Source: Sinorhizobium meliloti 4H41
Lineage (GTDB): Bacteria > Pseudomonadota > Alphaproteobacteria > Rhizobiales > Rhizobiaceae
Direction of reading: 5' to 3'
DNA length: 64,000 nucleotides
NCBI RefSeq assembly: GCF_000375585.1
Contig: NZ_AQWP01000010.1
Coordinates: 124,001-188,000, forward strand
The position numbers and the translations under genes are program-made. This document shows positions 39,535 through 59,209 of the stretch, in pieces. Under the pieces are notes generated by a model that saw only the letters and a program-made list of their open reading frames with translations, ran no database searches and was not told where the DNA came from. How positions within the stretch are numbered: position 1 is the stretch's first letter; every line of letters starts with the position of its first letter.

Positions 39535-39559
39535 GGAACTTTGCGGAGCCTGACGTGTT
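39535..39559 (+). promoter_or_regulatory. Candidate RpoE2/EcfG promoter of the DUF1003 gene
   Basis: GGAAC at 39535-39539, 18 bases, TT at 39558-39559 (GTGTT). The start codon at 39611 lies 51 bases downstream. Confidence 0.65.
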
Positions 39560-39610
39560 TGCCGTAGCCGCCGGCAACAAGGCGGCCCACAAGGTGTCGC
39601 GAGTGTTCGA

Positions 39611-40162
39611 ATGGAATCGAGAAGGAACAGAACCGAGGAAAGATCGTCCGCCGCTCGAACCATGCCGAGGCTCGAGCGCAACATAAACGCCATCCTGAAG
39701 CGGCGCGAGGAAGACGAACGCGGGCGGAGGGCTCACGACAGGGTCGCCCAGGCGATCACGAACTTCGCAGGCTCCATGACTTTCGTCGGCTTGCACGTCC
39801 TGGCGTTCGGCGCCTGGATCGCTCTGAACCTCGGTCTGGTTCCCGGCATACCGGTGTTCGACCCGACCTTCGCCGTCCTCGCCATGGTTGCTTCGGTGGA
39901 GGCGATCTTCATTTCCACTTTCGTTCTGATCAGCCAGAACCGGATGGCCGAGAAGGACGACGAGCGCTCCGACCTCAATCTGCAGATTTCGCTCCTTGCC
40001 GAGCAGGAGGCGACGCAACTGCTCGCGCTTCTTCGTGAGATAGCCGGCCGGCTGGGCGTGAAGGTGGACGGTGAAGAGGACATCCGTGAACTCACCAAGG
40101 AGATCACGCCGGAAGAGGTCCTCAATCGGCTCGAGGACCAGAAGGTCCGGTCGGGCGATTAG
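39611..40162 (+). CDS. DUF1003 membrane protein
   Basis: Membrane protein of 183 residues with two helices at about residues 50-105 (FVGLHVLAFGAWIALNLGL and VASVEAIFISTFVLIS) followed by QNRMAEKDDERSDLNLQISL, the recognisable DUF1003 core. A charged C-terminal region of 60 residues faces the cytoplasm. The family's function is unknown. The ATG at 39611 is preceded only by a weak AAGGTG; ATG at 39662 is an alternative. The upstream promoter suggests stress induction. Confidence 0.82.
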   Translation: MESRRNRTEERSSAARTMPRLERNINAILKRREEDERGRRAHDRVAQAITNFAGSMTFVGLHVLAFGAWIALNLGLVPGIPVFDPTFAVLAMVASVEAIFISTFVLISQNRMAEKDDERSDLNLQISLLAEQEATQLLALLREIAGRLGVKVDGEEDIRELTKEITPEEVLNRLEDQKVRSGD

Positions 40163-40182
40163 AACCACGCCCGTTTGCCGCA

Positions 40183-40207
40183 GGAACAATCGGCCGGGCC
40201 CGTCATT
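40183..40207 (+). promoter_or_regulatory. Candidate RpoE2/EcfG promoter of the pyruvyltransferase operon
   Basis: GGAAC at 40183-40187, 18 bases, TT at 40206-40207. It is 28 bases before the ATG of the small gene at 40236, which is followed on the same strand by the pyruvyltransferase and FrhB-like genes. Confidence 0.65.
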
Positions 40208-40235
40208 TGACGACTGACAGCAAAAGGAGTCCGAG

Positions 40236-40511
40236 ATGGAGGAGTCACAAGCTATTTCCCGTCCGCAACGCGCTTCCGACTATTCCGGTCGCCGGATGGA
40301 CTGCATCGCCGCTCTGCGGCCGGCCGTGTCGGACCTGGCGGCGACATCACAGGAAAGCATCGTGGCGGCGATGGGCGGGGAGTTGACCGACGATCTGCTG
40401 GCGCTCGCCCATCGGGCCGAGGCGGCCGGTTGGACGTTCGAGGAGGCATCGGCGGCGATCGAGGAGCTTGCGCGCGAATATGAGGGCGCCAAAGGAACCA
40501 TCTTCGATTGA
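40236..40511 (+). CDS. Small hypothetical protein
   Basis: Protein of 91 residues, acidic and mostly helical by composition (HRAEAAGWTFEEASAAIEEL). No signal peptide, membrane segment or cysteine pair beyond a single Cys. AAAAGGAG precedes the ATG. It lies between a stress-type promoter and the pyruvyltransferase gene, 49 bp upstream of it. I do not recognise a family. Confidence 0.65.
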   Translation: MEESQAISRPQRASDYSGRRMDCIAALRPAVSDLAATSQESIVAAMGGELTDDLLALAHRAEAAGWTFEEASAAIEELAREYEGAKGTIFD

Positions 40512-40560
40512 AACCGGTTGAACCCGGCGATCTGCTTCCACGATAAGGAGATAGAGGCCG

Positions 40561-41625
40561 TTGGCGAAACTCGGCGTTTTGACCTTCCACCGCTGCATAA
40601 ACTATGGATCGTTCTGGCAGGCGCGATCTCTTGTCCACGGTCTTCGTTCGCTCGGCAGCGACCCCATTGTCCTCGATCATCATTCCGCCCGCGTCACCCG
40701 GGCCGAGTGGCGTTGCGCGATGCAGCCGCTTCTGCCGGAGAGGACCCCGCGCGCCGACATTCCGCTCTACGCTTCCAAGATCAGAAAATTTCAGAGCGCC
40801 CTGGCTTCGGTGCCGATGAGTGCCCCCTTCGCACTGGACGACCCGGCCGGCGCCGAAGAATGCGACATCGTCGTCGTGGGCAGCGACGAGGTTTGGAACT
40901 TGCGGCACCCCTGGTACGGCGGTTGCTCGCTTTTCTACGGGGAAGGTCTCTCCGCCAAGAGAACCGTTTCCTACGCGGCGACGTTCGGAAACCACCCCGC
41001 GGCCGATGGCCTCGAACCATACTGGGCTGAAAGGCTGCGCAAATTCGATGGAATTTCCGTCCGCGACGACAATTCGAGGGCGATCATCGAAAAGGATGTG
41101 GGACGCGAGGCGACGCTCGTTCTCGACCCATGCCTGCAGTTCCCAGAGACGATTTCCTTCGGCCCCAATGCTCTGGCTTCACGCCCCTACATAGCCGTCT
41201 ACGGACATTCGTTCCCGTCATGGTTTCAGCACACGATCCGCCATTGGGCGACGACGCGCTCGCTGCCTCTCGTCAGCATAGGCTATCGCAACGAATGGGC
41301 GGACGAGCAGTGGCTCGATGCCGGGCCGTACGAGTTCGCCGCCTGCATGGCGGGTGCCGAGGCCGTCGCGACGAATTTCTTTCACGGCTGCGTCTTCTCC
41401 CTCCTCAACGCCAAGCCATTCGTCACGGTCCTTTCCGACTATCGTTCCAACAAGATCGCCGATCTCGCGCGCACCGCCGGCGCGGAACGGCACGTGGTAT
41501 CGCAGGAGACGCCGCAAGCCGATTACGAGACACTTCTCGCGCAATCCCCGAGCCCGGCTGTCGCGCGAAGGCTCGCCGAACTCCGCCGGCAATCACGGAT
41601 CTATCTGACAGATGTCCTCGCCTGA
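40561..41625 (+). CDS. Polysaccharide pyruvyltransferase family protein
   Basis: Predicted transferase of 354 residues that would add a ketal-linked pyruvate (from phosphoenolpyruvate) to a sugar. Family landmarks are GVLTFHRCINYGSFWQARSL at the start, DIVVVGSDEVWN near residue 100 and AEAVATNFFHGCVFSLL near residue 262. The start codon is TTG at 40561 with AAGGAG ten bases upstream. The stop overlaps the FrhB-like gene by 14 bp. These two families often sit together in surface-polysaccharide clusters. Confidence 0.87.
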   Translation: MAKLGVLTFHRCINYGSFWQARSLVHGLRSLGSDPIVLDHHSARVTRAEWRCAMQPLLPERTPRADIPLYASKIRKFQSALASVPMSAPFALDDPAGAEECDIVVVGSDEVWNLRHPWYGGCSLFYGEGLSAKRTVSYAATFGNHPAADGLEPYWAERLRKFDGISVRDDNSRAIIEKDVGREATLVLDPCLQFPETISFGPNALASRPYIAVYGHSFPSWFQHTIRHWATTRSLPLVSIGYRNEWADEQWLDAGPYEFAACMAGAEAVATNFFHGCVFSLLNAKPFVTVLSDYRSNKIADLARTAGAERHVVSQETPQADYETLLAQSPSPAVARRLAELRRQSRIYLTDVLA

Positions 41626-43036
41626 GCGACCCGCACCCGCCTTGGCCAGCGCCTTGCTCTCGCCGGGGCAGATGGCGAAATCCGGGCTCTGCATCGGTTG
41701 CGGCACGTGCATGGCGCAATCGAGCGGCAGCGCCGCGATGCGTCTCGACCGCTACGGCCAGCTCAAACCGGCCGCTGCACATCGCCCCGACGGTTTCGCC
41801 GAGCTTTGCCCCTTTTCGCCCCACGCCCGAAGCGAAGACCAGATCGCCGAGGCGCGCTTCGGATCGGCGCGATTTTACGACCCGCGGATCGGCCGCTTCG
41901 AGGCAGCCTATGTCGGCCATGTCAGCGAGGGCAGCTTTCGAGCCGAGGGCAGTTCCGGCGGCATGGCCAGTTGGACCGCCGCGGAGCTTCTGAAGAGGAA
42001 CCTGGTCGACGCGGTTGCGCATGTGGTTCCCTGTTCAGGCCCCGGCGAACGCCTGTTCCGGTATCAGGTCTCGCGGACCGCGGATGACCTGCGCAAGGGC
42101 GCCAAGTCGCGCTATTATCCGGTGGAGCTCTCCGGCGTCATCGCCGAAATGAAGCGGCATCCCGGCCGCTACGCAGTCGTCGGAATTCCCTGCTTCATCA
42201 AGGCGATCCATCTCCTCTGCCTCAACGACCCGGTGCTTGAGGAGCGCCTTGCCTTCACCCTCGGCCTGTTCTGCGGACACATGAAGAGCACCCGCTTCGT
42301 GGAAAGTTTCGCCTGGCAGATGGACACGGAAATGAACGCCGTCGCGGGCGTGGACTACCGCCTGAAGGATTCCGCTAGACCGGCAAACTGGTACACGGCC
42401 CATCTGCGGCTCAGGGACGGAAGCACGAGAAGCAAGGATTGGTGGCATCTGGTCGACGGCGACTGGGGAGCCGGGTTCTTCCAGAATTCCGCCTGCAATT
42501 TCTGCGATGACGTGGTTGCCGAAACGGCCGACATCTCCTTCGGCGACGCCTGGGTCGAACCCTATTCGTCCGACGGCCGCGGAACGAATGTGGTCGTCGT
42601 GCGCTCGCCCCTGCTGCAGACGCTCGTGGCCGAGGCGATCGACGCGGGAAAGCTCGACCTGAGCGCGGTCGACAGTGCCTTCGTCGTGGAGACGCAGGCT
42701 GCCGGTTTCAGGCAAAGACGGGAGGGGCTGGCCTTCCGGCTGGCCTGGCCGCGTTCCGGCATTCGACCGAGGAAACGCGTTGCGCCGAAGTGGAGGGGCT
42801 TGCCTGCACGGCGGATGCTGGTTTACTGGCTGCGCAGCGCGATCAGCGCAAACAGTCACCGTGTCTTCTGGCTTGCCAGAGCCCTGAACATGCCGGCCGC
42901 CTATCTGCGCTGGGCGTCGGCGATGCTCGCTCTCTACCAGGGCGTGACCTATTCACGCGGCTGGATCGGCAAGCTCGCCGATGCCATCGCGACGCCTTGG
43001 CGCAAGGGCTCGAAGGACGACGGGGCGGGCGCATAG
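41612..43036 (+). CDS. Coenzyme F420 hydrogenase/dehydrogenase beta-subunit-like (FrhB family) protein
   Basis: Iron-sulphur flavoprotein-like protein of 474 residues. The N-terminal cluster motif is Cys27-x-x-Cys30-Gly-x-Cys33 (LCIGCGTC). The FrhB signature ACNFCDDVVAE-TADISFGDAW lies near residue 293. In polysaccharide clusters such proteins accompany pyruvyltransferases and are thought to reduce or oxidise a sugar nucleotide or lipid-linked sugar; F420 itself is not expected here. The last 88 bases overlap the 3' end of the convergent hydrolase gene. Confidence 0.82.
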   Translation: MSSPERPAPALASALLSPGQMAKSGLCIGCGTCMAQSSGSAAMRLDRYGQLKPAAAHRPDGFAELCPFSPHARSEDQIAEARFGSARFYDPRIGRFEAAYVGHVSEGSFRAEGSSGGMASWTAAELLKRNLVDAVAHVVPCSGPGERLFRYQVSRTADDLRKGAKSRYYPVELSGVIAEMKRHPGRYAVVGIPCFIKAIHLLCLNDPVLEERLAFTLGLFCGHMKSTRFVESFAWQMDTEMNAVAGVDYRLKDSARPANWYTAHLRLRDGSTRSKDWWHLVDGDWGAGFFQNSACNFCDDVVAETADISFGDAWVEPYSSDGRGTNVVVVRSPLLQTLVAEAIDAGKLDLSAVDSAFVVETQAAGFRQRREGLAFRLAWPRSGIRPRKRVAPKWRGLPARRMLVYWLRSAISANSHRVFWLARALNMPAAYLRWASAMLALYQGVTYSRGWIGKLADAIATPWRKGSKDDGAGA

Positions 43037-43911
43037 CGCGCCGTCATTTCGGCACAGAATTCGGCAAATTCCTCCGGTACGAGGGGCGCGCTCGTGTGGT
43101 GCGGAGCGAGCCCCCGGTGCTCGGGCGTGAAGCAGTAGGTAACGGTGACGTCGAAATCCTCGAGCGCCTCCATCTGGCGATCGAACCAGTCGAGCGCATT
43201 CGGCCGGAAGCGGTCGGCCCAGGAGAGGCCGGTGCGCAGATATGTGACGCCTAGGCGCTTCATCCAGGCGACCGCATCGTCGAGGCGCGGGTCCTCGAAA
43301 TGGAACCATTGTACGAGCCCGATCTCCGGCGTGTGCCGGGCAAACTCCTCGAGCGCCAGTTTCGGCGTTCCGTCCTCGCGCAGAAGACCCATGTAGAAAT
43401 GCCGGTAATAGGAAGAACCTTCGGCCTCGCGATGCCGCGTCGTCGCCGGCCAGGCCCGCGGCAGGTCGTAAAGGCTGTACCATTGGATCCGATCCGCCCG
43501 GCCCTTCAGGAGTTCGGCGGTTCGCTTCAGTCCCCAAAGCTGCACTTCCTCGGCGCCGAAGGTGGAGACGCCGACCTCGCTTACCCAGACCGGCAGTTCG
43601 GTGACGCTCTTCAGTTCATCGAGCTTCTGCGGCCATTCATGGATCTGCCAGAGGTTCCAGTCGAGCGGGAAACCATGGGCCGCGACAGCGTCGACATGGT
43701 CGAGCACGCCCTCCGATTTCATCAGAGCGAGGAAGTTCGGATCGATCGGCGAAATTCCCCCGAGCACGCGCGTGAGCCCGGGATTGACCTCCCGGATCGC
43801 AGCCGCGGCCAGCTTCGCCATATGGGCAAAGCGGCTCCAGTCCGGATCGATCTCCGGATCCCAATGCGACTTGTTGTTCGGCTCGTTCCAGATCATGGCG
43901 GCTTCGATCAT
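42949..43911 (-). CDS. Glycoside hydrolase (beta-xylosidase-like, clan A barrel), apparently circularly permuted
   Basis: Protein of 320 residues. It starts almost at once with the acid/base motif WNEPNNKSHWD (Glu near residue 10). The nucleophile motif PVWVSEVGVSTFG follows about 100 residues later, and the end of a barrel (GLLREDGTPKLALEEF) falls near residue 190. The remaining 130 residues look like the usual beginning of such barrels: AWMKRLGVTYLRTGLSWAD, then a helix and VTYCFTPEH...SAPLVPEEFAEF. The normal N-terminal third therefore sits at the C-terminus. GGAGGT four bases before the ATG makes this start firm. No signal peptide is seen, so it would act in the cytoplasm. Confidence 0.75.
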   Translation of the reverse strand: MIEAAMIWNEPNNKSHWDPEIDPDWSRFAHMAKLAAAAIREVNPGLTRVLGGISPIDPNFLALMKSEGVLDHVDAVAAHGFPLDWNLWQIHEWPQKLDELKSVTELPVWVSEVGVSTFGAEEVQLWGLKRTAELLKGRADRIQWYSLYDLPRAWPATTRHREAEGSSYYRHFYMGLLREDGTPKLALEEFARHTPEIGLVQWFHFEDPRLDDAVAWMKRLGVTYLRTGLSWADRFRPNALDWFDRQMEALEDFDVTVTYCFTPEHRGLAPHHTSAPLVPEEFAEFCAEMTARYAPAPSSFEPLRQGVAMASASLPIQPRE

Positions 43912-43983
43912 GAGTACCTCCGAATTGCCGGAAACGCCGGCCGGCCCCCCGCATTTGCGGCACCGGCGGACGCGGCCGGCCGG

Positions 43984-44583
43984 CTACGACACGTTTTCGT
44001 TCAACGTCAGGATTTTCGCGCCCCAATCGCCCATCACCAGTACCGAAATGGAGGCAGGGGCGATTTCGAAGCGCGGCCAGGCGTCGGCGGAAAGGCCTAG
44101 AATATGACAGACCAGCGTTTTGATGACGTCCGCGTGGCTGACCAGGGCGACCTTCTCCTGGCCGTGGCGCTGCGCAAGCGCCGCCACAAGTCCCACCGCC
44201 CGGCATTGCACGTCCAGCATCGTCTCCCCGCCCGGGGCACGCACGAGGCTTCGCATCGCGTTCCATCGCCGCCAGAGCGGGTCGGTATCGAGGACGTCGA
44301 AAGTCTTGCCCGACCAGTCGCCGAAATCCACCTCGTCGAGAGCTTCCGTGGTCACGACCTCCGCGACTTCCGACGCCGCGGCGATCGCCGCGGCCGTTTC
44401 CTGCGTGCGCTTGCGCGGGCTCGCATAGATCGAGCCTATGCCTTCGCCGGCCAGACGCGCCGCGAGCCGCTGGGCCTGCTCGCGGCCCGCGGTGCCGAGC
44501 GGCACGTCGCCGGTCCGCCCGGCAAGAAAGCAGCCGACCCTGTCATGGGCGGCATGCCGCACCAGAAGGAAAGTGGTCGTCAC
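43984..44583 (-). CDS. Histidine phosphatase (phosphoglycerate-mutase-like) family protein
   Basis: Protein of 199 residues. The catalytic histidine is in LLVRHAAHD at residues 6-14 (RHA instead of the common RHG) and the second histidine is in [22 protein letters not shown] supplies the usual phosphate-binding arginines. The start is GTG at 44581-44583, overlapping the inositol-phosphate synthase stop. This coupling suggests that it dephosphorylates inositol phosphate or a later sugar phosphate of the same pathway. The inositol role is an inference; textbook inositol monophosphatases belong to another fold. Confidence 0.82.
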
Positions 44584-45683
44584 TCGGCGGCCCCCAGGAG
44601 TGCGTCGGTATCGCCGGCGATGAATTCCTCGAGGCGTCTGCGCGCTTCGGCATCGGTGAACTGCCGCGGCGGCGACTTCATGAAGTAGCTCGAAGGGGCA
44701 ATCAGCGGACCGGCGATGCCGCGGTCGATTGCGAGTTTGGCGCAGCGAACCGCATCGATGACGACTCCTGCGGAATTCGGCGAGTCCCAGACTTCGAGCT
44801 TCAGTTCCACGTTGAGGGGGACGTTGCCGAATGTCGTGCCCTCGACGCGAATATAGGCGAACTTGCGGTCGGCAAGCCAAGGGACGTGATCGCTCGGGCC
44901 CACGTGGATGTCGCCGGCCGCGAGCGGAATATCCATCTGGCTGACGACCGATTGGGTCTTGGAAATCTTCTTCGATTCGAGCCGTTCCCGCTCGAGCATG
45001 TTGAGAAAGTCGGTATTGCCGCCGAAATTGAGCTGGTAGGTCCGATCTATGCGCACCCCCCGGTCGCGAAAGAGGTTGGCAAGCAACCGATGCACGATGG
45101 TCGCGCCGACCTGGCTCTTTATGTCGTCGCCGATGAGCGGCAGGCCGCGCTCGGCGAATTTGCGCTGCCACGACTTGTCCGAGGCGATGAAAACGGGAAT
45201 GCAGTTGACGAAACCGCAGCCGGCGGCAAGCGCCTGCTCCGCATACCAGCGCGTGGCGACTTCGGAACCGACCGGAAGATAGGAGACGAGCACGTCCGTC
45301 TCGGTCCGCCGCAGGACCTCCGCGACGTCGGCGGCGGGCGCATCGGATTCCTCGATCTCCTCGCGCAGATAGCGGCCGATGCCGTCGAGCGTTCTGCCGC
45401 GCTCGACGAGCACGCCGGTGGCGGGAACTTCCGCAAAGCGGAACGTGTTGTTGGGAGCGGCGTAGATGGCCTCCGCGACATCGCGCCCGACCTTCGAAGC
45501 GGCGACGTCGAAGGCCGCTGAGAGCTCGATATCACCGACGTGGTATCCGCCGAGACTGGTATGCATCAGCCCCGGAACCGGCTCGTCCTCCTTCGCGTCG
45601 CGATAGAATGTCAGCCCTTGGACGAGGGAGGACGCGCAATTGCCGACACCGACCAGCCCGACCCGAATGGAGTTCGATCGCAT
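44580..45683 (-). CDS. Inositol-3-phosphate synthase (short, actinobacterial-type Ino1)
   Basis: NAD-dependent synthase of 367 residues that turns glucose 6-phosphate into myo-inositol phosphate. It opens with [17 protein letters not shown] (Rossmann). [34 protein letters not shown] and the [11 protein letters not shown] stretch are classical for the short Ino1 type of actinobacteria and archaea; eukaryotic enzymes are much longer. It is first in a three-gene operon with the phosphatase and the permuted hydrolase, behind a stress-type promoter. AGGAG precedes the ATG. Confidence 0.92.
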
Positions 45684-45722: not shown

Positions 45723-45747
45723 AACCCGCGCGCAACCGATTGGTTCC
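45723..45747 (-). promoter_or_regulatory. Candidate RpoE2/EcfG promoter of the inositol-phosphate synthase operon
   Basis: On the minus strand GGAAC (45747-45743), 18 bases, TT (45724-45723), about 40 bp before the start codon. The -35 is part of the 14-mer AAAGAAGAAGGAAC, which also occurs before the epimerase operon. The 151-bp gap also serves the divergent gene at 45835, for which I see no promoter. Confidence 0.68.
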
Positions 45748-45834
45748 TTCTTCTTTCTCCCGTTTCTCGCGCATCGCGGATCGAATTCAGCCGCAGCGCG
45801 TTGACTGGGCGGACAGGAAAGTGAGCGAGACTTC

Positions 45835-47580
45835 ATGCTCGTATACGGTGACGCAAAGCGCCTGGAGCGCGCCGACACGCTATGCGCAGAGATCGCCTCG
45901 CGCCTGCATACGGCCCAACACCAGCCGGCGGGCATCGCGCGCCACACCGAGCTCGTCGCCATCCTGCTCAGGGCCGGGGAACTGGTGCAGGGGCTTGCCG
46001 ACCTGGAACTGGCGCGGATGGGAGCCGACGACATCTCCGCATCGCGCCAGACCGGCGAGTGCCTCCTCCTCGACCTTGCCGGGCTCGTCGCCCGGTCCTG
46101 GCGCCAGGGCTTCGCCGGCCCGGTGGTCGTGCCGGCCCGTGTCGCAAGGTCGCTGGCGGACAGCCAGGCACCGCTTTCCCTCAGCATTCGCGAGCCGGAA
46201 GGCTATGCCTTCTATGCTCTTTACCCGGAGAGCTATCTCGAGGCCGCGGCAGGTTCCGGGCTTGCTGCCCACACGGTGGTGATCGGCCTGCGCAGCATCG
46301 GGACCACGCTCTCGGCGATTGTCGCGGCTTCCATCGGTGCGGCGCCTCCCATCACACTGCGGCCGGTCGGCGATCCGTTCCGAAGGCGGCTTGCAGTCGC
46401 GCCGCAACTTGCGGAACGGCTGCTGCGCGACCGGGCGGCGGATTTCGCGATCGTGGACGAAGGACCCGGCCTTTCCGGCAGCTCGTTCGGATGCGTCGCG
46501 GATTGGCTGGAGGATCACGGCGTCAGCGCCAACCGCATTCACTTCTTCCCCGGCCACAAGGGCGGACTTGGGCCGCAATCCTGCGGCCGTCATCGCGAGC
46601 GCTGGGCGGAAAGGCCGCGCCATGTCATCGACGTCGACGATCTCCTGATCAAGCCGTCGCACTCTGCCCGCCACCTCGCCGATTGGGTCGCCCATCTCGT
46701 CGGCCCGCTCGAGAAGCCGCTCGAAGACGTCTCAGCCGGCCTATGGCGCAAGAAGCTTCCCGGCGATCGCTGGCCTCCCGCAGACGGCAGGTTCGAACGC
46801 CGGAAATTCCTGGCGCACACCGCCGACGGCCCGTGGCTCGTCAAGTTTGCGGGACTCGGCGAAGCCGGGCAGCGCAAGCTCGTCAAGGCGCGTCTTCTTG
46901 CCGAGGCAGGCTTCACGCCACCGGTCGCCGGATTGTGCCATGGCTTTCTGGTTCAGAAATGGGTTTCGGCGAAGCCGATGGCGCCGCCGGAATTCCGCCG
47001 GCCGGCCTTCATCGCCCATCTCGGCCGCTACCTGTCCTTCCGGGCGCACAGCCTGCCGCCGCCTGCGGCGCAAGGGGCATCCATGGCCAAACTTTGCGAG
47101 ATGGCAGTGATCAACACCGAAGAGGCATTGGGCAGAGCGGCAGCGTCGCGGCTGAAGAGCCGCCTCGGCGATGCGGAACGATACAATTCGACGATCGTGC
47201 CGGTCGATACGGACAACCGGCTTCACCGGTGGGAATGGCTGGTCGAAGGAGAGCGACACATTCTCAAGACCGATGCGCTCGACCACAGCAGCGCCCATGA
47301 CCTCATCGGCTGTCAGGACATCGGCTGGGACATTGCGGGCGCGAGCATAGAATTCGACCTCACGCGGGAGGAGCGGGCGGCGCTGCGCGCGGCCGTATCC
47401 GAAGGCTGCTCGCGCATTCCGGATGCCGGGCTGCTGGAGCTCTTCGAACTCTCCTATCTCGCCTCCCAGCTGGGCCTCTGGATGTCGGCAAAGTCCGTGG
47501 CCGCCCCCGAGGAAGTCCCCCGGCTGGAGGCCGCAGCCGCGCGCTATGCGAGGTTCCTTCGGCGCCGGATCGAGGATTAG
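45835..47580 (+). CDS. Fusion of a phosphoribosyltransferase-like domain and a kinase-like domain
   Basis: Cytoplasmic protein of 581 residues with two parts. In the first, GLRSIGTTLSAIVAA (151-165) and DFAIVDEGPGLSGSSFG (203-219) resemble the PPi loop and the PRPP-binding motif of type I phosphoribosyltransferases. In the second, WLVKFAGLGE (about 335) and a later SSAHDLIGCQDIGWDIAGASIEF-like region (about 475-500; Asp-Ile-Gly-Trp-Asp-Ile-Ala) resemble an aminoglycoside-phosphotransferase-type kinase. Either a nucleotide-type intermediate is made and phosphorylated, or the first domain binds a phosphosugar as a regulator. I know no characterised protein with this arrangement. It is divergent from the inositol operon. 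Confidence 0.65.
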   Translation: MLVYGDAKRLERADTLCAEIASRLHTAQHQPAGIARHTELVAILLRAGELVQGLADLELARMGADDISASRQTGECLLLDLAGLVARSWRQGFAGPVVVPARVARSLADSQAPLSLSIREPEGYAFYALYPESYLEAAAGSGLAAHTVVIGLRSIGTTLSAIVAASIGAAPPITLRPVGDPFRRRLAVAPQLAERLLRDRAADFAIVDEGPGLSGSSFGCVADWLEDHGVSANRIHFFPGHKGGLGPQSCGRHRERWAERPRHVIDVDDLLIKPSHSARHLADWVAHLVGPLEKPLEDVSAGLWRKKLPGDRWPPADGRFERRKFLAHTADGPWLVKFAGLGEAGQRKLVKARLLAEAGFTPPVAGLCHGFLVQKWVSAKPMAPPEFRRPAFIAHLGRYLSFRAHSLPPPAAQGASMAKLCEMAVINTEEALGRAAASRLKSRLGDAERYNSTIVPVDTDNRLHRWEWLVEGERHILKTDALDHSSAHDLIGCQDIGWDIAGASIEFDLTREERAALRAAVSEGCSRIPDAGLLELFELSYLASQLGLWMSAKSVAAPEEVPRLEAAAARYARFLRRRIED

Positions 47581-49769: not shown

Positions 49770-49885
49770 TGATGCCCGCAGTTCGCGTGGAACACTCCCG
49801 CGAAAGAGAGGTTTGTACCTTGGCACGGGGCGACGCCCCCGGGGGATCAAAGAAGAACATGAAAGAAGAAGAAGTCAAAGAAGAA

Positions 49886-52178: not shown

Positions 52179-53326
52179 GCCTTCCCGCCGTTTCCGCCGC
52201 TCGATTTGACGGCCGCCGCAAGGCCCCGGGCCCACTGCCGCAGCGGGTGTTGATGACCGTCGATGCCGTCGGCGGCGTCTGGCGCTATGCGATGGATCTC
52301 GCTGCGGCCATGCGCGATTGCGGCGTGGAGACGCTGATCGTCGGCCTCGGCCCGCAACCTTCCGCGGAGCAACGGCGCGAGGCGAACAGCATCGGCCGGC
52401 TCGAATGGCCGGCTGAGCCGCTGGACTGGATGGTCGAAGACGAGAGCGAGCTCGACCGCGTGCCGCACCTCCTGTCCGAACTCGCGCTCAGGCATTCCGT
52501 CGATCTCCTCCATCTCAACCTGCCGTCCCAGGCGGCGCGAATAACGGCGGAACTACCGCTCGTCACCATGTCGCATTCCTGCGTCGTCTCCTGGTTCGTT
52601 GCGGTGCGCGGGTCCGGTTTGCCGGAAGCCTGGGCGTGGCAGAAGCGATTGAACCGGTTGGGATTCGACCGCGCCGATCTGGTGCTTGCGCCGAGCCGAA
52701 GCCATGCCGCGACCCTGACGCGCACTTACGGTGCAATCCCCGATCTCGCAGTCGTCTACAATGCAAGCCGGAATGCATGCTCCGTCAGCACCAAGGAAAA
52801 CTTCGTCTTTGCCGCCGGTCGCTGGTGGGACGAAGGCAAGAACGGCGCCGTGCTCGACAGGGCCGCCGCCGACATAGACTGGCCGGTCGTGATGGCAGGT
52901 GCCTGCGAAGGCCCGAACGGGCAGCACCTGGCGATCATGCATGCCGATCACGAAGGCGAACTCAGCCACGACCGGACGATGAGGCTGATGTCGAAGGCCG
53001 CGATCGTCGTCTCTCCATCGGTCTATGAACCCTTCGGGCTGGTGGCGCTGGAAGCCGCGCGTGCAGGCGCTGCACTGGTTCTCGCCGACATCGAGACCTA
53101 TCGCGAGCTCTGGGAGGGCGCCGCCCTTTTCGCCGACCCCGGTGATCCCGCCGCCTTTGCCGAAGCCGTCAACCGGCTGACGGAGGATGAAAGGCTCAGG
53201 GCCGACCTTGGCCGGCGGGCGCAGCTGCGCTCAGCCGATTTCACGGTCGAGGCTCAGCGCGACGCGGTGCTCGCCGCCTACCGGCGGGTGATGAGCGGGT
53301 CCGATCAATTGACGGCAGCGGAGTGA
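52175..53326 (+). CDS. GT4-family glycosyltransferase
   Basis: Predicted retaining glycosyltransferase of 383 residues with the GT-B fold. The donor-binding EX7E motif is visible as YEPFGLVALEA near residue 290. GGVWRYAMDLAAAM near residue 33 is the N-terminal glycine-rich acceptor/donor loop. No membrane segment, so it is cytoplasmic or peripheral. It is coupled by ATGA overlap to the epimerase before it. Confidence 0.86.
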   Translation: MSLPAVSAARFDGRRKAPGPLPQRVLMTVDAVGGVWRYAMDLAAAMRDCGVETLIVGLGPQPSAEQRREANSIGRLEWPAEPLDWMVEDESELDRVPHLLSELALRHSVDLLHLNLPSQAARITAELPLVTMSHSCVVSWFVAVRGSGLPEAWAWQKRLNRLGFDRADLVLAPSRSHAATLTRTYGAIPDLAVVYNASRNACSVSTKENFVFAAGRWWDEGKNGAVLDRAAADIDWPVVMAGACEGPNGQHLAIMHADHEGELSHDRTMRLMSKAAIVVSPSVYEPFGLVALEAARAGAALVLADIETYRELWEGAALFADPGDPAAFAEAVNRLTEDERLRADLGRRAQLRSADFTVEAQRDAVLAAYRRVMSGSDQLTAAE

Positions 53327-53330
53327 GCGG

Positions 53331-54461
53331 ATGCGATTTCTCTTCTACACCCACTCATTGGTGTCCGACTGGAACCACGGCAATGCGCATTTTCTGCGCG
53401 GCGTCATGCGCGAACTCATCCGGCGCGGCCACGAGGCAGTAGCGCTCGAGCCCGGCGATTCCTGGAGCCGGCGCAATCTCGTCGCAGATCAGGGTAACGG
53501 AGCGATCGCTGCCTTCCGCAAGACCTTCCCCGATTTGAGGGTCGGGATCTACGGGACCGATTTCGAGCATGAAGCGGCGGCCCGCGAGGCCGATATGGTT
53601 ATCGTGCATGAGTGGACCGATCCCGCTCTCGTGGCCGAGCTCGGCCGTATTCGCCTGAAGGGCGGCCGCTTCACGCTCGCTTTCCACGATACCCATCACC
53701 GCGCCGTCAGCGCCGAGCGGGACATCGCCCGGCTCGACCTTTCCGGATACGACTTCGTTCTGGCCTTCGGTGAGGCGCTGCGGGAGCGTTATCTGCAGGC
53801 GGGCTGGGGAAGGCATGTCCATACCTGGCACGAGGCTGCGGATACCTCGCTGTTCCACCCGATGCCGGACGTGGAAAAGCGAGGCGAACTCATCTGGATC
53901 GGCAATTGGGGCGACGACGAGCGCAGCAGCGAGATCATTTCCTTCCTGGTCGAACCGGCGAAAAAGCTGAAGCTCAGGACCACCGTCCGCGGCGTGCGAT
54001 ATCCCGAGACCGCGCTCAGGGCTTTACGGTCCGCGAAAATCGACTATGGCGGCTGGCTCTCCAATGCCGTCGTTCCGCGGGCTTTCGCCGAGCATCGGGT
54101 CACCGTGCACATTCCGCGCCGGCCTTATGTCAAGGCCCTGCCGGGCATACCGACGATCCGCGTCTTCGAGGCGCTTGCCTGCGGCATTCCGCTGATTTCG
54201 GCGCCTTGGACCGATGCCGAAGGACTTTTCCGGCCGGGCAGGGATTTTTGCATTGCCAAGGACGGCAAGGAGATGACGCGCCTTCTGCGCCAGTTGCTCG
54301 CCGAACCGGACTTCGCCGCGGAGATGACCGCCTCCGGGCTGGAGACGATCCGGGCGCGCCACACATGCAGCCATCGCGTCGACGAGCTGCTCGCCATCGT
54401 GGCCTCCTACAGGCCGCGCTCCGGCGCGCGACAGATCATTTCGGAGGAGGTCGAGGTATGA
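53331..54461 (+). CDS. Glycosyltransferase, CgeB-like (first of three)
   Basis: Predicted GT-B glycosyltransferase of 376 residues. The N-terminal strand RFLFYTHSLVSDWNHGNAHF and the C-terminal IPTIRVFEALACGIPLIS with PWTDAEGLF are the landmarks of the CgeB-like group, named for a Bacillus spore-surface glycosylation protein. It shares this plan with the next two genes. No membrane segment or signal is seen. The donor and acceptor are unknown. Confidence 0.8.
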   Translation: MRFLFYTHSLVSDWNHGNAHFLRGVMRELIRRGHEAVALEPGDSWSRRNLVADQGNGAIAAFRKTFPDLRVGIYGTDFEHEAAAREADMVIVHEWTDPALVAELGRIRLKGGRFTLAFHDTHHRAVSAERDIARLDLSGYDFVLAFGEALRERYLQAGWGRHVHTWHEAADTSLFHPMPDVEKRGELIWIGNWGDDERSSEIISFLVEPAKKLKLRTTVRGVRYPETALRALRSAKIDYGGWLSNAVVPRAFAEHRVTVHIPRRPYVKALPGIPTIRVFEALACGIPLISAPWTDAEGLFRPGRDFCIAKDGKEMTRLLRQLLAEPDFAAEMTASGLETIRARHTCSHRVDELLAIVASYRPRSGARQIISEEVEV

Positions 54462-55543
54462 GGCTGGCATTTTACGGATCGAGTCTCGTTTCGGCCTACT
54501 GGAACGGCGCGGCCACCTACTATCGCGGCCTGCTCCGGGCGCTTGCCGAACGGGGATATCAAATCACCTTCTACGAGCCCGATGTCTACGATCGGCAAAA
54601 GCACCGCGATATCGATCCGCCCTCTTGGTGCAGGGTCGTCGTCTATGACGGGACCGTCGAGGCGTTGAAGCGAGTGGCGCGGGAAGCAGCCAAAGCGGAC
54701 ATCGTCGTCAAGGCAAGCGGCGTCGGCTTCGAGGACGACCTGCTGCTCGCCGAGGTGATGGCCGCGGCGGACCCGGCGGCGCTGAAAATCTTCTGGGATG
54801 TCGATGCACCCGCCACTCTGGCCGATCTCAGGGCCGCGCCCGACCACCCGCTTCGCCGCGCGCTTTCCTCCCTGGATCTCGTGCTGACCTATGGCGGCGG
54901 CGATCCCCTGGTCGAAGCCTATCGCGCGCTGGGCGCCCGCGATTGCGTTCCGATCTACAATGCCGTCGATCCCGAGACACACCACCCGGTGCCGCCGGAT
55001 CCGCGCTTTGCCGCCGATCTCGCCTTTCTCGGCAACCGCCTGCCGGACCGGGAGGAGCGCGTGGAGGCCTTCTTTTTCGAGCCGGCGCAAAAGCTCTGGC
55101 AACGGCGTTTCCTGCTCGGCGGATCCGGATGGCACGATAAGTCTCTGTCCCCGAATGTCGCCTATATCGGGCACGTACCGACCGCCGACCACAATGCCTT
55201 CAACACGACGCCGAATGCCGTCCTGAATATTTCACGCGCCAGCATGGCCGAAAACGGCTTCTCGCCGGCAACCCGCGTCTTCGAGGCCGCGGGCGCCGGC
55301 GCCTGCCTGATCACCGACTACTGGGAGGGCATCGAGCTCTTCCTGAAACCCGGAGAAGAAGTGCTGGTCGCCAGAGACGGCCGCGACGTCGCCGAACTGA
55401 TGCAGCAGCTGACGGCGGCCGGCGCCCGTGAGATCGGCGAGCGGGCGCTCCGCCGCGTTCTCGCCGAGCATACCTATGCGCATCGTGCCGAGGAGGTGGA
55501 CCGCGTCCTGCGGCAGGCGCGCCGAATGGAGGCTGCCGAATGA
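54458..55543 (+). CDS. Glycosyltransferase, CgeB-like (second of three)
   Basis: Predicted GT-B glycosyltransferase of 361 residues. It starts LAFYGSSLVSAYWNGAATYY and has the C-terminal landmark FSPATRVFEAAGAGACLITD followed by YWEGIELFL. The order of elements matches both neighbours, so the three probably arose by duplication. ATGA overlaps at both ends indicate coupled translation. Confidence 0.82.
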   Translation: MRLAFYGSSLVSAYWNGAATYYRGLLRALAERGYQITFYEPDVYDRQKHRDIDPPSWCRVVVYDGTVEALKRVAREAAKADIVVKASGVGFEDDLLLAEVMAAADPAALKIFWDVDAPATLADLRAAPDHPLRRALSSLDLVLTYGGGDPLVEAYRALGARDCVPIYNAVDPETHHPVPPDPRFAADLAFLGNRLPDREERVEAFFFEPAQKLWQRRFLLGGSGWHDKSLSPNVAYIGHVPTADHNAFNTTPNAVLNISRASMAENGFSPATRVFEAAGAGACLITDYWEGIELFLKPGEEVLVARDGRDVAELMQQLTAAGAREIGERALRRVLAEHTYAHRAEEVDRVLRQARRMEAAE

Positions 55544-56658
55544 AGCGACCGCTCGACATCGTCATTCTCGGTCTCTCGCTGTCCTCCTCGTGGGGCAACG
55601 GTCATGCGACGACCTATCGCGCTTTGCTTCGCGCGCTCGACGCTGCCGGGCACAAGGTGACGTTCCTGGAACGGGACGTGCCCTGGTATGCGAGCAACCG
55701 CGATCTGGCCGCGCCGGATTTCTGCGACCTCGTGTTCTACTCGAACCCGGACGAACTCGTCTCCAGGCATGCGCACCGGCTGGCCGGCGCGGATGCCGTC
55801 GTCATCGGCTCCTACGTGCCTGATGGCGTGGAGGTCATCGACGCGGTTGCGGATCTAGCACCGAAACGTCTGTTCTTCTACGACATCGACACGCCTGTGA
55901 CGCTCGCCAAGCTCGAGCGCGGCGACGAGGAGTTTCTGGCGCGAAGACAGGTTGCGGCCTTCGACATTTATTTTTCCTTCTCCGGCGGCAGAACGCTCGA
56001 CCGGCTGCGGGACGAGTTCGCGGCGCGGCGGCCGGTGCCCCTCTATTGCGCCGTCGACCTCGACGCCTATCGCGATACCGGTGCGGCCACCGAGTGGGAC
56101 CTCGGCTATCTCGGCACCTTCAGCCACGACAGGCAACCCGCGCTCGAACGCCTGTTGATCGAGCCGGCGCGGCGCTTGCCGCACATGCGCTTCGTCGTGG
56201 CCGGGCCGAGCTATCCTGAGGACATCGACTGGCCGGAAAACGTCGCGCGCATCGAACATCTGCCGCCCGGCCAACATGCCGAATTCTACAGCCGCCAGCG
56301 ATTCACCCTGAACGTAACGCGGGCCGACATGGTGGCCGCCGGCTGGTCCCCGAGCGTTCGCCTCTTCGAGGCCGCCGCGTGCCGCACGCCACTCATCAGC
56401 GACTGGTGGGAGGGGATCGAAAGCTTCTTCCCGGCCGGCGAGGCCGTGATCATCGCGCGAAACAGCAGCGATGTCGTCACGGCATTGACGCGGCTCGACG
56501 AAGAACAACGCAAAGCACTTGCCGATTGCGCCTATCGACGCGTCGCCGCCGCGCACAGTTCCGCGGCGCGCGCACGGACCTTTGTCGAGGCAATCGAAAG
56601 CGTCGCCGCCAGGGCCGGTCTCGCCACAAGGCGTTCCGAGCGGCGGCTTCCGGTTTAA
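55540..56658 (+). CDS. Glycosyltransferase, CgeB-like (third of three)
   Basis: Predicted GT-B glycosyltransferase of 372 residues. It begins IVILGLSLSSSWGNGHATTY and carries GWSPSVRLFEAAACRTPLIS followed by DWWEGIESFF. It is closer to the second copy than to the first in these segments. It is followed 19 bp later by UDP-xylose synthase, so xylose is one possible donor sugar for the set. Confidence 0.82.
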   Translation: MKRPLDIVILGLSLSSSWGNGHATTYRALLRALDAAGHKVTFLERDVPWYASNRDLAAPDFCDLVFYSNPDELVSRHAHRLAGADAVVIGSYVPDGVEVIDAVADLAPKRLFFYDIDTPVTLAKLERGDEEFLARRQVAAFDIYFSFSGGRTLDRLRDEFAARRPVPLYCAVDLDAYRDTGAATEWDLGYLGTFSHDRQPALERLLIEPARRLPHMRFVVAGPSYPEDIDWPENVARIEHLPPGQHAEFYSRQRFTLNVTRADMVAAGWSPSVRLFEAAACRTPLISDWWEGIESFFPAGEAVIIARNSSDVVTALTRLDEEQRKALADCAYRRVAAAHSSAARARTFVEAIESVAARAGLATRRSERRLPV

Positions 56659-56677
56659 CCCGAAAGGAGAACGGCCG

Positions 56678-57718
56678 ATGGCTAAAAGAAACAAAGCAAG
56701 CCGAGGAAAGATCATCCTGGTTGCCGGCGGCGCCGGCTTTGTCGGGTCGCACCTTTGTACAGCACTTCTAGGCTCCGGCAACCGGGTGATCTGCCTCGAC
56801 AGCTATCTCACCGGCTCCCCTGCCAATCTCGTCGGCCTGCAGGACGACCCCTATTTCGCAATGGTGGAACAGGACGTCTGCGAGGAAATCGACATAGATG
56901 AACCGATCGACCAGATCTACAATCTGGCCTGCCCCGCCTCGCCGCCCTCCTACCAGGCCGATCCCATCCACACGATGATGACAAGCGTGACCGGGACGGG
57001 AAACCTCCTCCGGCTTGCCGAAAGGCACGGGGCCACGCTGCTGCAGGCCTCCACGAGCGAGATCTACGGCGATCCCGAGGAGCATCCGCAGCAGGAGAAC
57101 TACTGGGGCCACGTCAATTGCACCGGGCCGCGGGCCTGCTACGACGAAGGCAAACGCGCGGCCGAAGCCCTGTGCTTCGACAGTCTGAGGGCGGGAAGCG
57201 TCGACACGCGGGTCGCCCGCATCTTCAATACCTACGGTCCGCATATGCGCCCCAATGACGGCCGGATCGTATCGAACTTCATCGTCCAGGCGCTGAGGAA
57301 CGAGCCGCTCACCGTTTACGGCAGTGGCGAGCAGACGCGCTCCTTCTGCTACGTGTCCGATCTCGTGGACGGACTGATCCGGCTGATGAACCGCGAGGAG
57401 AATCCTGCCGTGCCGGTGAACCTCGGCAATCCCGGAGAATTCACCGTCATCGAACTGGCGGAACTGGTCCTCTCCAGGATCGAGACGGCCTCGACGATCG
57501 TCCATGAGCCACTGCCGGCGGACGATCCGCAGCGTCGCCGTCCCGATATCGCGCGCGCCAGGAAGCTTCTCGGCTGGGAGCCGAAAGTTCCTCTGGAGGA
57601 CGGGTTGACCCATACGATCGCCTGGTTCCAGAGCGCACTTGCCGAAAGCCGCGCTGAACGCCGGTCCGGCCGCACCCGGCGCCAGCCGCAACTTTCCGTC
57701 GTCACTCAGGATCTGTGA
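56678..57718 (+). CDS. UDP-glucuronate decarboxylase (UDP-xylose synthase)
   Basis: NAD-dependent enzyme of 346 residues that converts UDP-glucuronate to UDP-xylose and CO2. GGAGFVGSH is the coenzyme motif at residues 17-25. NLACPASPPSYQADPIHTMM is almost diagnostic of UXS, and YDEGKRAAE supplies the catalytic Tyr and Lys. RIFNTYGPHMRPNDGRIVSN is also typical. GAAAGGAG precedes the ATG at 56678. It provides a likely donor for the glycosyltransferases, and xylose would fit the beta-xylosidase-like hydrolase. Confidence 0.93.
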   Translation: MAKRNKASRGKIILVAGGAGFVGSHLCTALLGSGNRVICLDSYLTGSPANLVGLQDDPYFAMVEQDVCEEIDIDEPIDQIYNLACPASPPSYQADPIHTMMTSVTGTGNLLRLAERHGATLLQASTSEIYGDPEEHPQQENYWGHVNCTGPRACYDEGKRAAEALCFDSLRAGSVDTRVARIFNTYGPHMRPNDGRIVSNFIVQALRNEPLTVYGSGEQTRSFCYVSDLVDGLIRLMNREENPAVPVNLGNPGEFTVIELAELVLSRIETASTIVHEPLPADDPQRRRPDIARARKLLGWEPKVPLEDGLTHTIAWFQSALAESRAERRSGRTRRQPQLSVVTQDL

Positions 57719-57720: not shown

Positions 57721-58500
57721 ATGGTTCAGCAGACGAAAGACCGAACGGTCATCGCGCAAGAGATTGCGGCGCTCGGTCCCTGGTTCCACAACATGCGGAT
57801 CGGAGGCATCGAGACGGCACCCGGTCACTTCCTCGGCGACTATCCCGCGGTGAAATGGAAGGCCTTCAGGCATGTGGTGCCGGAGGACCTCGAAGGAAGG
57901 AGCGTCCTCGACATCGGCTGCAATGCAGGGTTCTACGCGCAGGAGATGAAACGCCGCAATGCCGGACGCGTACTCGGCATCGACTCGGACCCGCACTATC
58001 TGCGGCAGGCGAAGTTTGCCGCGGAGCAAGCGGGGGTCGACATCGAGTACAGGCTGATGTCGGTCTACGACGCAGCACGGCTGCGCGAGAGATTCGATCT
58101 GGTCATCTTCATGGGCGTTCTCTATCACCTGCGCCATCCGCTGCTGGCACTCGACCTCCTCTACGAGCATGTCGTCGGCGACCAGATGCTCTTCCAGTGT
58201 ATGCAGCGCGGGTCGGAATCCGTGGCAACTCTCAAGGGTGATTACGATTTCCGGGAGTGGGAGATCTTCGACCGGCCCGACTATCCGAAGCTGTTCTTCG
58301 TGGAACACCGCTTCGCGGATGACCCCACCAACTGGTTCATCCCCAACCGCGCCGGCGTCGAAGCGATGCTGCGAAGCGCCGGCTTCGTCATCGAAGCCAA
58401 TCCCGAGCGGGAAGTCTATCTCCTGCGGCGCGGCGAGCGTCCGTATCTGGACGAGCCGACCTTGAGGATCCTCGGAAATTCAGCAGATATCGGGAACTAG
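57721..58500 (+). CDS. SAM-dependent methyltransferase, CmoB/DUF1698-like (TIGR04290-like)
   Basis: Protein of 259 residues. The SAM motif SVLDIGCNAGFYAQEM lies near residue 61, and VIFMGVLYHLRHPL near residue 126 is typical of the CmoB/DUF1698 group. It is too short and in the wrong context for tRNA modification, so sugar O-methylation is more likely. I recall a described family (TIGR04290) of this kind next to glycosyltransferases, but could not check it. A GTG at 57715 is an alternative start. It is the last gene of the operon. Confidence 0.8.
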   Translation: MVQQTKDRTVIAQEIAALGPWFHNMRIGGIETAPGHFLGDYPAVKWKAFRHVVPEDLEGRSVLDIGCNAGFYAQEMKRRNAGRVLGIDSDPHYLRQAKFAAEQAGVDIEYRLMSVYDAARLRERFDLVIFMGVLYHLRHPLLALDLLYEHVVGDQMLFQCMQRGSESVATLKGDYDFREWEIFDRPDYPKLFFVEHRFADDPTNWFIPNRAGVEAMLRSAGFVIEANPEREVYLLRRGERPYLDEPTLRILGNSADIGN

Positions 58501-58513
58501 TGGCTGCGGCGAA

Positions 58514-58535
58514 CCTCCGGCCTGCAGGCCAGAGG
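58514..58535 (+). terminator. Hairpin after the methyltransferase gene
   Basis: GGCCTGCAGGCC (58519-58530) is a perfect 12-bp palindrome flanked by CCTC and GAGG, 14 bp after the stop. There is no T-tract, so termination efficiency is uncertain. Confidence 0.4.
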
Positions 58536-58582
58536 GGCAATTCACCGTCGCCTTGGCGTTGACGGTCCGTCGCTCACGGACC

Positions 58583-58774
58583 TCATCCGAAGCGGCGCAG
58601 CTGCGCAGCTTCCTTCTCGAGCAGGTCGGCGACTTCCTGAAGCGTCATGTGCGTCACGCAGAGATGAATCGCACATTCGAGAAAGCGCGTCGACGAGCGC
58701 CGCAAATACATGGCTTCTTCGCGAGCGGCGAGTTCCGATAGAGGATCTTTCGATGGGCGTCGGCGGTCAGGCAT
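58583..58774 (-). CDS. Small hypothetical protein
   Basis: Protein of 63 residues, charged, with a C-terminal helix (TLQEVADLLEKEAAQLRRFG) and two cysteines. GGAG lies six bases before the ATG. It is 39 bp after the next small gene upstream and shares its stress-type promoter. Proteins of this sort are common in rhizobial genomes. I recognise no family. Confidence 0.65.
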   Translation of the reverse strand: MPDRRRPSKDPLSELAAREEAMYLRRSSTRFLECAIHLCVTHMTLQEVADLLEKEAAQLRRFG

Positions 58775-58813
58775 TTGGAGACTCCTTCGATTCGCTTGTT
58801 TGAAGAACCGCTT

Positions 58814-59158
58814 TCACGGCGAGAGAAGCCCGCCGGCGTAGATCAAGGCGCCTATCACGACGGCCATGGCTATGATGGCCAGGCTCAGCCCCAGCCGTTG
58901 CCTGTTCGGTGCGGCGGTCTCCGCCGCTGCAAGCGGCCGCATCGCGTCGTTGTACTCGGTAGAGGTATCGGCCGGCCTCCCCGCGGCCTGCCCGGCCCTG
59001 GCGTTTCGAACCGCTTCACTGCCGGGCGGCATACCGCCTGCTTCGTCGTCGGTCTCGAGCGGCGCCGCCGCGGGGTCGAAGCCGCGCCTCTTGTCGCCCG
59101 TCCTTCCATGCTGGATGTCGCCGCGCACCTGCGCAGAATTGCTTGCCGGCTTGGACAT
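58814..59158 (-). CDS. Small C-terminally anchored membrane protein
   Basis: Protein of 114 residues: a long polar, probably disordered region (1-85) and one hydrophobic segment at about 89-112 (GLSLAIIAMAVVIGALIYAG). This suggests a tail-anchored inner-membrane protein. AAAGGAG precedes the ATG. A stress-type promoter lies just upstream. I recognise no family. Confidence 0.68.
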   Translation of the reverse strand: MSKPASNSAQVRGDIQHGRTGDKRRGFDPAAAPLETDDEAGGMPPGSEAVRNARAGQAAGRPADTSTEYNDAMRPLAAAETAAPNRQRLGLSLAIIAMAVVIGALIYAGGLLSP

Positions 59159-59184
59159 GGTCGCTCCTTTCCGCTTCGCGACTC

Positions 59185-59209
59185 AACCGGCTTTCAGGAT
59201 ATTTGTTCC
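59185..59209 (-). promoter_or_regulatory. Candidate RpoE2/EcfG promoter of the two small genes
   Basis: On the minus strand GGAAC (59209-59205), 18 bases, TT (59186-59185), 26 bp before the ATG at 59158. Confidence 0.65.

Follow-up and report, generated by a model that had tools for sequence, protein, structure and literature searches.

The sugar/inositol island described here lies in a window of 64,000 nucleotides of Sinorhizobium meliloti 4H41, and the part of the window from 40000 to 50500 has a 95.5% match on pSymB of strain 1021, where the island corresponds to about 241-262 kb of NC_003078. The island opens on the + strand with a DUF1003 gene (39611..40162, PF06210; its start may be 39662), followed on the same strand by a gene for a 91-aa protein without a family (40236..40511, called C below), a polysaccharide pyruvyl transferase gene (40561..41625, PF04230, called D) and a gene for an FrhB/FdhB-type protein (41612..43036, PF04432 and PF04422, called E). 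On the − strand are found genes for a circularly permuted glycoside-hydrolase-like (GH-like) protein (42949..43911; a single-sequence structure prediction had a mean pLDDT of 42, too low for use), a histidine phosphatase (43984..44583, PF00300) and inositol-3-phosphate synthase, ino1 (44580..45683, PF01658; 1gr0_A at E 1.6e-147). The next + strand gene (45835..47580) encodes a 581-aa protein for which no family was found: its best Pfam value was 0.77 in a search admitting E up to 1, and NCBIfam and PDB sequences gave no match. Two − strand genes follow, for a Gfo/Idh/MocA oxidoreductase (47611..48636, PF01408 and PF22725) and a zinc alcohol dehydrogenase-like protein (48629..49621, PF00107 and PF08240).

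The largest group of genes, all on the + strand, encodes two NAD-dependent sugar epimerases/dehydratases (49954..51060 and 51057..52178, both PF01370), a GT4 glycosyltransferase (52175..53326, PF00534 and PF13439), three glycosyltransferases of the Glyco_trans_1_2 type (53331..54461, 54458..55543 and 55540..56658, all PF13524), an NAD-dependent sugar epimerase/decarboxylase-like protein (56675..57718, PF01370) and a TIGR04290 family methyltransferase (57721..58500, TIGR04290 at 380 bits for a cut-off of 300); for the genes at 51057, 52175, 54458 and 56675, a longer open frame was scanned. Two small − strand genes close the island, coding for a 63-aa protein with no family over the cut-off (58583..58774) and a 114-aa protein with a C-terminal hydrophobic stretch and no family (58814..59158).

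Rhizobial sugar and exopolysaccharide gene clusters contain epimerases, glycosyltransferases and a pyruvyltransferase. The island likewise has all three, and it adds inositol-3-phosphate synthase and, weakly, inositol-dehydrogenase-like genes; its product would be an inositol-linked or surface glycan. Among those island proteins that were scanned, several of them without a family, neither a flippase nor a polymerase was recognised.

Promoter motifs ahead of the transcription units

Nearly every transcription unit of the island is preceded by a general-stress-type promoter motif, a −35 GGAAC and a −10 TT separated by 18 or 19 bases. The first-pass annotation had reported six GGAAC-N18-TT sites, giving those on the − strand by the 5' end of the motif; all six are where it placed them, intergenic and directed at gene starts. 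They lie at 39535..39559 (+, ahead of the DUF1003 gene, to which motif and position assign it), 40183..40207 (+, ahead of C and presumably serving the whole C-D-E unit), 45723..45747 (−, ino1, histidine phosphatase and GH-like gene), 49745..49769 (−, alcohol dehydrogenase and Gfo/Idh unit), 49886..49910 (+, epimerase/glycosyltransferase operon) and 59185..59209 (−, the two small genes). The count of six was, however, too low, as two further sites that lie ahead of a transcription unit and point towards it had been overlooked: an exact match at 49789..49813 (+), a second, distal site of the epimerase/glycosyltransferase operon, for which 49886 is the proximal one, and an N19 site at 40494..40519 (+) ahead of D, which overlaps the 3' end of C (69% of the site is coding) and fits N19 only. 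Four of the seven N18 sites are also compatible with N19.

With the gene calls made in this analysis, the window's 15 exact matches divide into 7 coding and 8 intergenic ones, against a mean of 5.1 matches in shuffled sequence (sd 2.5, largest 13; 100 shuffles). Seven of the eight intergenic matches belong to the island, and each of these points at a gene start on its own strand 27-141 bp away; the eighth lies outside the island at 21512. In the island's 1,072 bp of intergenic DNA, 0.05 sites would be expected by chance and 7 are observed.

Over the whole genome and ignoring position, the motif gives no excess (810 matches, as compared with 890 for the reversed motif); the signal is visible only when position relative to genes is considered. 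A 1.82-Mb replicon from the same species has 69 gene-upstream GGAAC-N18-TT sites, whereas 29 permuted versions of GGAAC average 10.7 (sd 4.2). This gene-upstream excess peaks at N18 and N19. When a G before the TT is included, 56 sites are found at N18-TT, 17 at N19-TT and 1-8 at eight other spacings, while eleven other gaps give a mean of 4.5 and a maximum of 8. One-base variants of the −35 element were considered as a general class and rejected, as none comes near GGAAC (56 vs 4.5 at N18-TT); small excesses are seen on the replicon for GTAAC (4 vs 0.8), TGAAC (5 vs 1.7), AGAAC (5 vs 1.5) and GGATC-N16-CGTT (2 vs 0.2).

Conservation of the sites among relatives

We compared the island across three sets of genomes. 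Of 33 genomes searched for ino1, 26 gave a match and 7 none; the genus set holds 22 of the 26, the window's own genome, a same-species relative used as the replicon control (G014) and two genomes with short contigs (G018 and G030) being excluded; the family set holds 26 of 32 other-genus genomes matching at E <=1e-80 (199 searched), and the class set 12 genomes besides the window's own matching at E <=1e-110 (385 searched). One has to keep in mind that near-identical loci (L015 and L016) are among the 22 of the genus set, which are not independent of one another.

Column invariance was measured at four of the eight GGAAC sites (45723, 49745, 49789 and 49886) and at a GGATC variant at 45778. 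At all five, none of the 23 Sinorhizobium sequences departs from the −35 and −10 bases, while the spacers vary (0.68-0.87). Among the counted patterns made of a 5-mer, a gap of 12-24 and a 2-mer, GGAAC-N18-TT and its shifted reading GGAAC-N17-GT were conserved at the largest number of units (5 of 8), and no pattern lacking GGAAC was conserved at more than one of the eight. The GGAAC sites thus behave as elements under selection, with those before C and before D each lost in some genomes.

The main glycan operon carries a site in 22/22 genus, 20/26 family and 5/12 class loci, as compared with at most 2 for permuted motifs; neither an N18 nor an N19 site was found within 200 bp in 6/26 family and 6/12 class loci. 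The ino1 unit has one in 22/22 genus, 2/3 family and 1/3 class loci, and the dehydrogenase unit in 22/22 genus loci (19 N18 and 3 N19) and, outside the genus, in 8/14 family and 0/1 class loci. For the pyruvyltransferase unit, the location shifts: among genus loci, an N18 or N19 site precedes C in 11 of 16 and D in 14 of 22, the latter with all 6 in which C was not detected, so that a site before C and/or D is kept in all 22. The DUF1003 site is present in the 5 genus loci where the gene was detected, and that of the small-gene pair at 59 kb in 13 of 16, or 13 of 14 when 100 bp or more of upstream sequence is required.

For comparison, we looked at eleven operon-internal gene starts, and the site is absent from each of them (0/22 genus loci). 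Outside the genus, a few genes that are internal here do have a site, the gene at 56675 in 5/26 family and 2/12 class loci and the 63-aa gene in 5/5 family loci, perhaps because gene order differs. Single permuted motifs reach up to 11/22 at the operon-internal starts, where the upstream DNA is coding and the permutation controls are therefore noisy; no permuted count exceeds 3 at those unit starts where the motif is present. Immediately upstream of the proximal operon site, we also observed a conserved AGAAGAAGTCA block, so a further regulator may act at the main operon.

The gene at 45835 had been singled out as the exception without a site. It indeed has no GGAAC; it does have a conserved variant, GGATC-N18-TT with CG before the TT, at 45778..45802 (+), which has the spacing and the CGTT of an EcfG/RpoE2 promoter but not its −35 and begins 50-59 bp before the start of the gene. 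We tentatively suggest treating 45835 as a unit whose −35 is a variant rather than as an exception, and this is the weakest step of our reading. That the gene is not an EcfG target, GGATC...CGTT serving a different sigma factor or regulator, is a real possibility falling somewhat short of evens: across the replicon, gene-upstream DNA shows no clear enrichment of GGATC at the EcfG spacing (GGATC-N17-GTT, 2 vs a background of 1.6), whereas both halves are present in 23 of 23 aligned sequences, with a spacer of 18 or 19, at a distance from the start like that of the neighbouring sites.

The EcfG reading and its alternatives

The EcfG promoter class is well known, and the likeness to the published S. 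meliloti RpoE2 consensus pointed out in the first-pass annotation holds: in their −35 and −10 elements and 18-19 spacing, the island sites agree with the promoters that PMC6180224 lists in its Table 1, and so resemble the RpoE2 regulon of S. meliloti 1021 (PMC3616915, PMC6180224). That regulon was established by start-site mapping and overexpression, whereas the island sites are known from sequence alone. Our scan retrieves four of the five published RpoE2-type pSymB promoters located on the replicon; the fifth has N19 spacing. The window's genome encodes PhyR, NepR and EcfG together (locus L042: NepR, PF18557; sigma factor, PF04542/PF08281; PhyR, PF22029/PF22233/PF00072), and the DNA between NepR and PhyR carries sites pointing both ways; this complete module, with sites of its own, showed no difference from the EcfG general stress response system of Alphaproteobacteria. 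Spacing, orientation, distance to the start, invariance of the motif, recovery of published promoters and presence of the module all speak for the RpoE2/EcfG promoter reading. We therefore hold it highly probable that the sites are EcfG-type promoters (ECF15; RpoE2 in S. meliloti) that would place the island under the general stress response. Such control may carry little weight, as an rpoE2 deletion in Ensifer aridi is reported to have caused no phenotypic alteration (PMC8877191). From these features, we infer the use of the sites by RpoE2, stress induction and operon membership.

That the sites might be chance matches of a short motif agrees with the raw genome count, which does not exceed its reversed control, and with the 7 of 15 window matches sitting in coding DNA; yet chance, which the first-pass annotation already found hard to accept, is next to negligible given the 7 intergenic sites for 0.05 expected and the gene-upstream excess on the replicon, and invariance in 23 of 23 sequences refutes it for the five aligned sites. 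The sites could also be genuine ECF promoters read, some or all of them, by RpoE5 or RpoE6, in which case the island would not simply be a general-stress unit. According to PMC6180224, RpoE5 belongs to ECF15 and RpoE6 targets overlap those of RpoE2 (27 of 40), but the same paper gives a single putative RpoE5 target and a weaker response to RpoE6 for 21 of the 27 shared targets. Site conservation moreover extends into other genera, which may or may not have RpoE5 or RpoE6. We find this explanation improbable. Still less credit goes to the idea that the GGAAC...TT elements are parts of the binding site of another regulator that needs an 18-19 bp spacing: the AGAAGAAGTCA block beside the proximal operon site would suit it, but published RpoE2-type promoters on the same replicon share both elements and spacing, and the seven intergenic sites are all aimed at a nearby start.

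Under EcfG control, stress would act through PhyR to free EcfG from NepR, and EcfG-RNA polymerase would read the −35 GGAAC and the −10 (G)TT, 18-19 bases apart, ahead of each unit: DUF1003; the small gene with pyruvyltransferase and FrhB; ino1-phosphatase-GH; ADH-Gfo; the epimerase/glycosyltransferase/methyltransferase operon with its two sites in tandem; and the pair of small genes at 59 kb. The gene at 45835 would be transcribed from the variant −35 (GGATC). As relatives have kept the promoters while the surrounding DNA changed, stress would very probably induce the island as a single unit, as the first-pass annotation had supposed. A more far-reaching proposal, which we consider close to an even bet, is that of a glycan/inositol pathway dedicated to general stress, in which long-term selection has acted on the EcfG control itself, with promoters kept at units, shifted between neighbouring genes (before C or D, 22/22), doubled at the main operon and weaker or different at 45835 through a fixed GGATC −35; control of the core operon would then be older than the split of the Rhizobiaceae genera. 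Such a conserved, uncharacterised sugar/inositol pathway would be linked to the rhizobial stress response by specific candidate promoters, and the turnover between adjacent genes would offer a clean natural case of selection retaining regulation while its location shifts.

Published S. meliloti tables may already list the island sites. The island genes presumably fall in the SMb2022-SMb2025 locus-tag ranges; a literature search with these assumed tags, also combined with RpoE2, returned nothing on the island, the sole tag match being an ABC transporter gene.

The true density of sites on the 1.82-Mb replicon is 0.69 per 20 kb, for which 7 sites correspond to a Poisson p of about 1e-5, uncorrected for the choice of the stretch. 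The island as a unique cluster was rejected: the 20 kb from 521102 of the replicon hold 9 sites and further 20-kb stretches 5-8, so that denser groupings than the island exist on the replicon.

EcfG-type sites in the island and on the replicon

All six of the GGAAC-N18-TT sites that the first-pass annotation had placed in the sugar/inositol island (about 39535-59209) were found in the window, but the island had been undercounted: a second exact site of the main operon (gene start 49954), at 49789 (+), and a GGAAC-N19-TT site ahead of the pyruvyltransferase gene, at 40494 (+), had been overlooked. The exact motif occurs 15 times in the 64-kb window, 7 times in coding and 8 times in intergenic DNA; seven of the eight intergenic matches lie within the island, each facing a same-strand start 27-141 bp away, which bears out the placement and orientation first described. 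The eighth intergenic match, outside the island at 21512-21536 (+), is set within an imperfect inverted repeat. The genome carrying the window measures 6.79 Mb; positions 40000-50500 give a 95.5% match to the minus strand of S. meliloti 1021 pSymB (NC_003078, 250418-260921), and matches to further Sinorhizobium records reach 98%.

Counted genome-wide regardless of position, GGAAC-N18-TT shows no excess (810 vs 890 for the reversed motif). As such a position-blind count is uninformative, we counted sites upstream of genes on a replicon of a same-species relative (G014:C2; 1,820,000 of 1,820,429 bases used), retaining intergenic sites at most 250 bp from a same-strand start; its 1,616 genes were called by a simple codon-usage method, which miscalls the FrhB gene in the window. 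This gave 69 sites, against a mean of 10.7 (sd 4.2) for the 29 other permutations of GGAAC. The N19 spacing yielded 53 and gaps 14-17 and 20-23 between 10 and 30, and requiring a G before the TT sharpened the peak (56 at N18 and 17 at N19, vs 1-8 at the same outer gaps). For a positive control we turned to Table 1 of PMC6180224, in which six pSymB rows carry an RpoE2-type motif: five were located on the replicon, four in our N18 list and the fifth as N19, while the sixth, the SMb20522 promoter, had no good match there.

Chance is a very unlikely source of the island sites, as had been argued: at the permuted-motif rate, its 1,072 intergenic bp would be expected to hold 0.05 sites, and 7 were observed. 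The island is rich in sites, with 7 where the background density is 0.69 per 20 kb, yet it is not unique, the 20 kb from 521102 on the same-species replicon holding 9. Dense clusters on that replicon, at 520-540 kb (L070) and 934-966 kb (L090-L092), include the published promoters of SMb20074, rpoE5 (SMb21484) and SMb21442.

Conservation and turnover of the sites

Sites ahead of the inositol-3-phosphate synthase gene ino1, the alcohol dehydrogenase-like gene (48629-49621; N18 in 19, N19 in 3) and the main operon are each present in 22/22 Sinorhizobium genomes. The DUF1003 gene has one in 5/5 loci and the 114-aa gene in 13/16, or 13/14 when only loci offering 100 bp or more upstream are counted. 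None of eleven starts inside operons has an N18 or N19 site in any of the 22 genus loci. We aligned the two divergent regions (23 sequences). The five -35 and three -10 positions scored at each of the five aligned sites, the variant GGATC site of the 581-aa gene among them, were all invariant (23/23), with mean conservation of 0.68-0.87 in spacers and 0.53-0.79 in flanks. In a count of every 5-mer/gap 12-24/2-mer combination over eight units, GGAAC-N18-TT (with its shifted reading GGAAC-N17-GT) came top, conserved at five units; five other patterns, all starting with GGAAC, were conserved at two or three, and every remaining one at a single unit.

Outside the genus, the main operon retains its N18 site in 20/26 Rhizobiaceae genomes and in 5/12 genomes of other families (6/12 including N19), the largest permuted count being 2. 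The dehydrogenase has a site in 8/14 family and 0/1 class loci, ino1 (N18 or N19) in 2/3 and 1/3, and the gene at 56675 in 5/26 and 2/12; two other genes have an N19 site in 1/12 and 1/3. For the 63-aa gene, a site was found in 1/15 genus loci and 5/5 family loci.

The 91-aa gene C (40236-40511), the pyruvyltransferase gene D (40561-41625) and FrhB form a unit in which C or D is preceded by a site in 22/22 genus loci. C was not detected in six of these, all with a site directly ahead of D; the remaining 16 have it before C only (8), D only (5) or both (3). The unit's sole site lies 112-115 bp ahead of C in two loci (L003 and L023), and in another (L014) the match is 184 bp ahead of C and may be non-homologous.

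The 581-aa gene at 45835 had been singled out as lacking a site. This holds for GGAAC, absent within 200 bp in 22/22 genus loci, yet a GGATC followed after 18 or 19 bases by TT, with CG before it, is strictly conserved in 23/23 sequences, beginning 50-59 bp before the start. Our reading, held with reserve, is of an EcfG-like promoter whose -35 is a variant, because GGATC at EcfG spacing shows no clear excess on the control replicon.

Two other blocks stand out: AGAAGAAGTCA at 49867-49877, directly upstream of the main operon's proximal -35 (10/11 positions invariant, 23 sequences), is possibly a second regulator site, and ATCTACAATGCT at 45706-45717 (+ strand), directly downstream of the ino1 -10 element, hardly varies across the genus.

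Regulators and prior knowledge

The EcfG/RpoE2 promoter class is already well known; the RpoE2 regulon was reportedly first described in a 2007 paper. NepR is encoded twice in the window's genome. One gene (L042) stands together with an ECF sigma gene and a divergent PhyR gene, with EcfG sites facing both ways between NepR and PhyR (N18 towards PhyR, N19 towards NepR); the other (L043) has a divergent gene that looks PhyR-like by eye, with GGAAC-N18/19-TT sites nearby. RpoE5 and RpoE6 might also read these promoters; PMC6180224 reports that the targets of RpoE6 and RpoE2 overlap. According to PMC3616915, 346 sigma-E2 promoters were predicted and 202 genes are raised by rpoE2 overexpression; the island sites may already be among those promoters. 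A search of a literature library for the island genes, by presumed locus-tag ranges, found no text on them.

Predicted functions of the island genes

Judged by protein family, the island genes would serve to make inositol phosphate and to modify sugar nucleotides, and they include predicted genes for four glycosyltransferases, one pyruvyltransferase and one methyltransferase of family TIGR04290; we infer an inositol-linked or surface glycan made under stress. For the inositol-3-phosphate synthase (44580-45683, -), the nearest matches are the INO1 model of mycothiol type (552 bits vs a cut-off of 638) and 1gr0, and the Gfo/Idh and ADH-like proteins fall closest to, and far below the cut-offs of, the inositol 2-dehydrogenase and scyllo-inosose dehydrogenase models, respectively.

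The glycoside hydrolase-like protein (42949-43911, -) is circularly permuted: its residues 7-185 and 198-294 match, with their order exchanged, the hydrolase domain encoded at a locus of another genus (L024), as also seen with L028, L038 and L135. Once rearranged, it gave one continuous alignment to the L024 protein (E 1e-34, vs 6e-25 and 5e-10 for the pieces separately) and hardly any gain against Pfam and PDB. At these four loci the homologous domain, in the usual order, sits between two epimerase genes within an extended open frame of 681-835 aa, measured from stop to stop, and is probably fused to the second epimerase; in the Sinorhizobium loci the permuted protein is free-standing.
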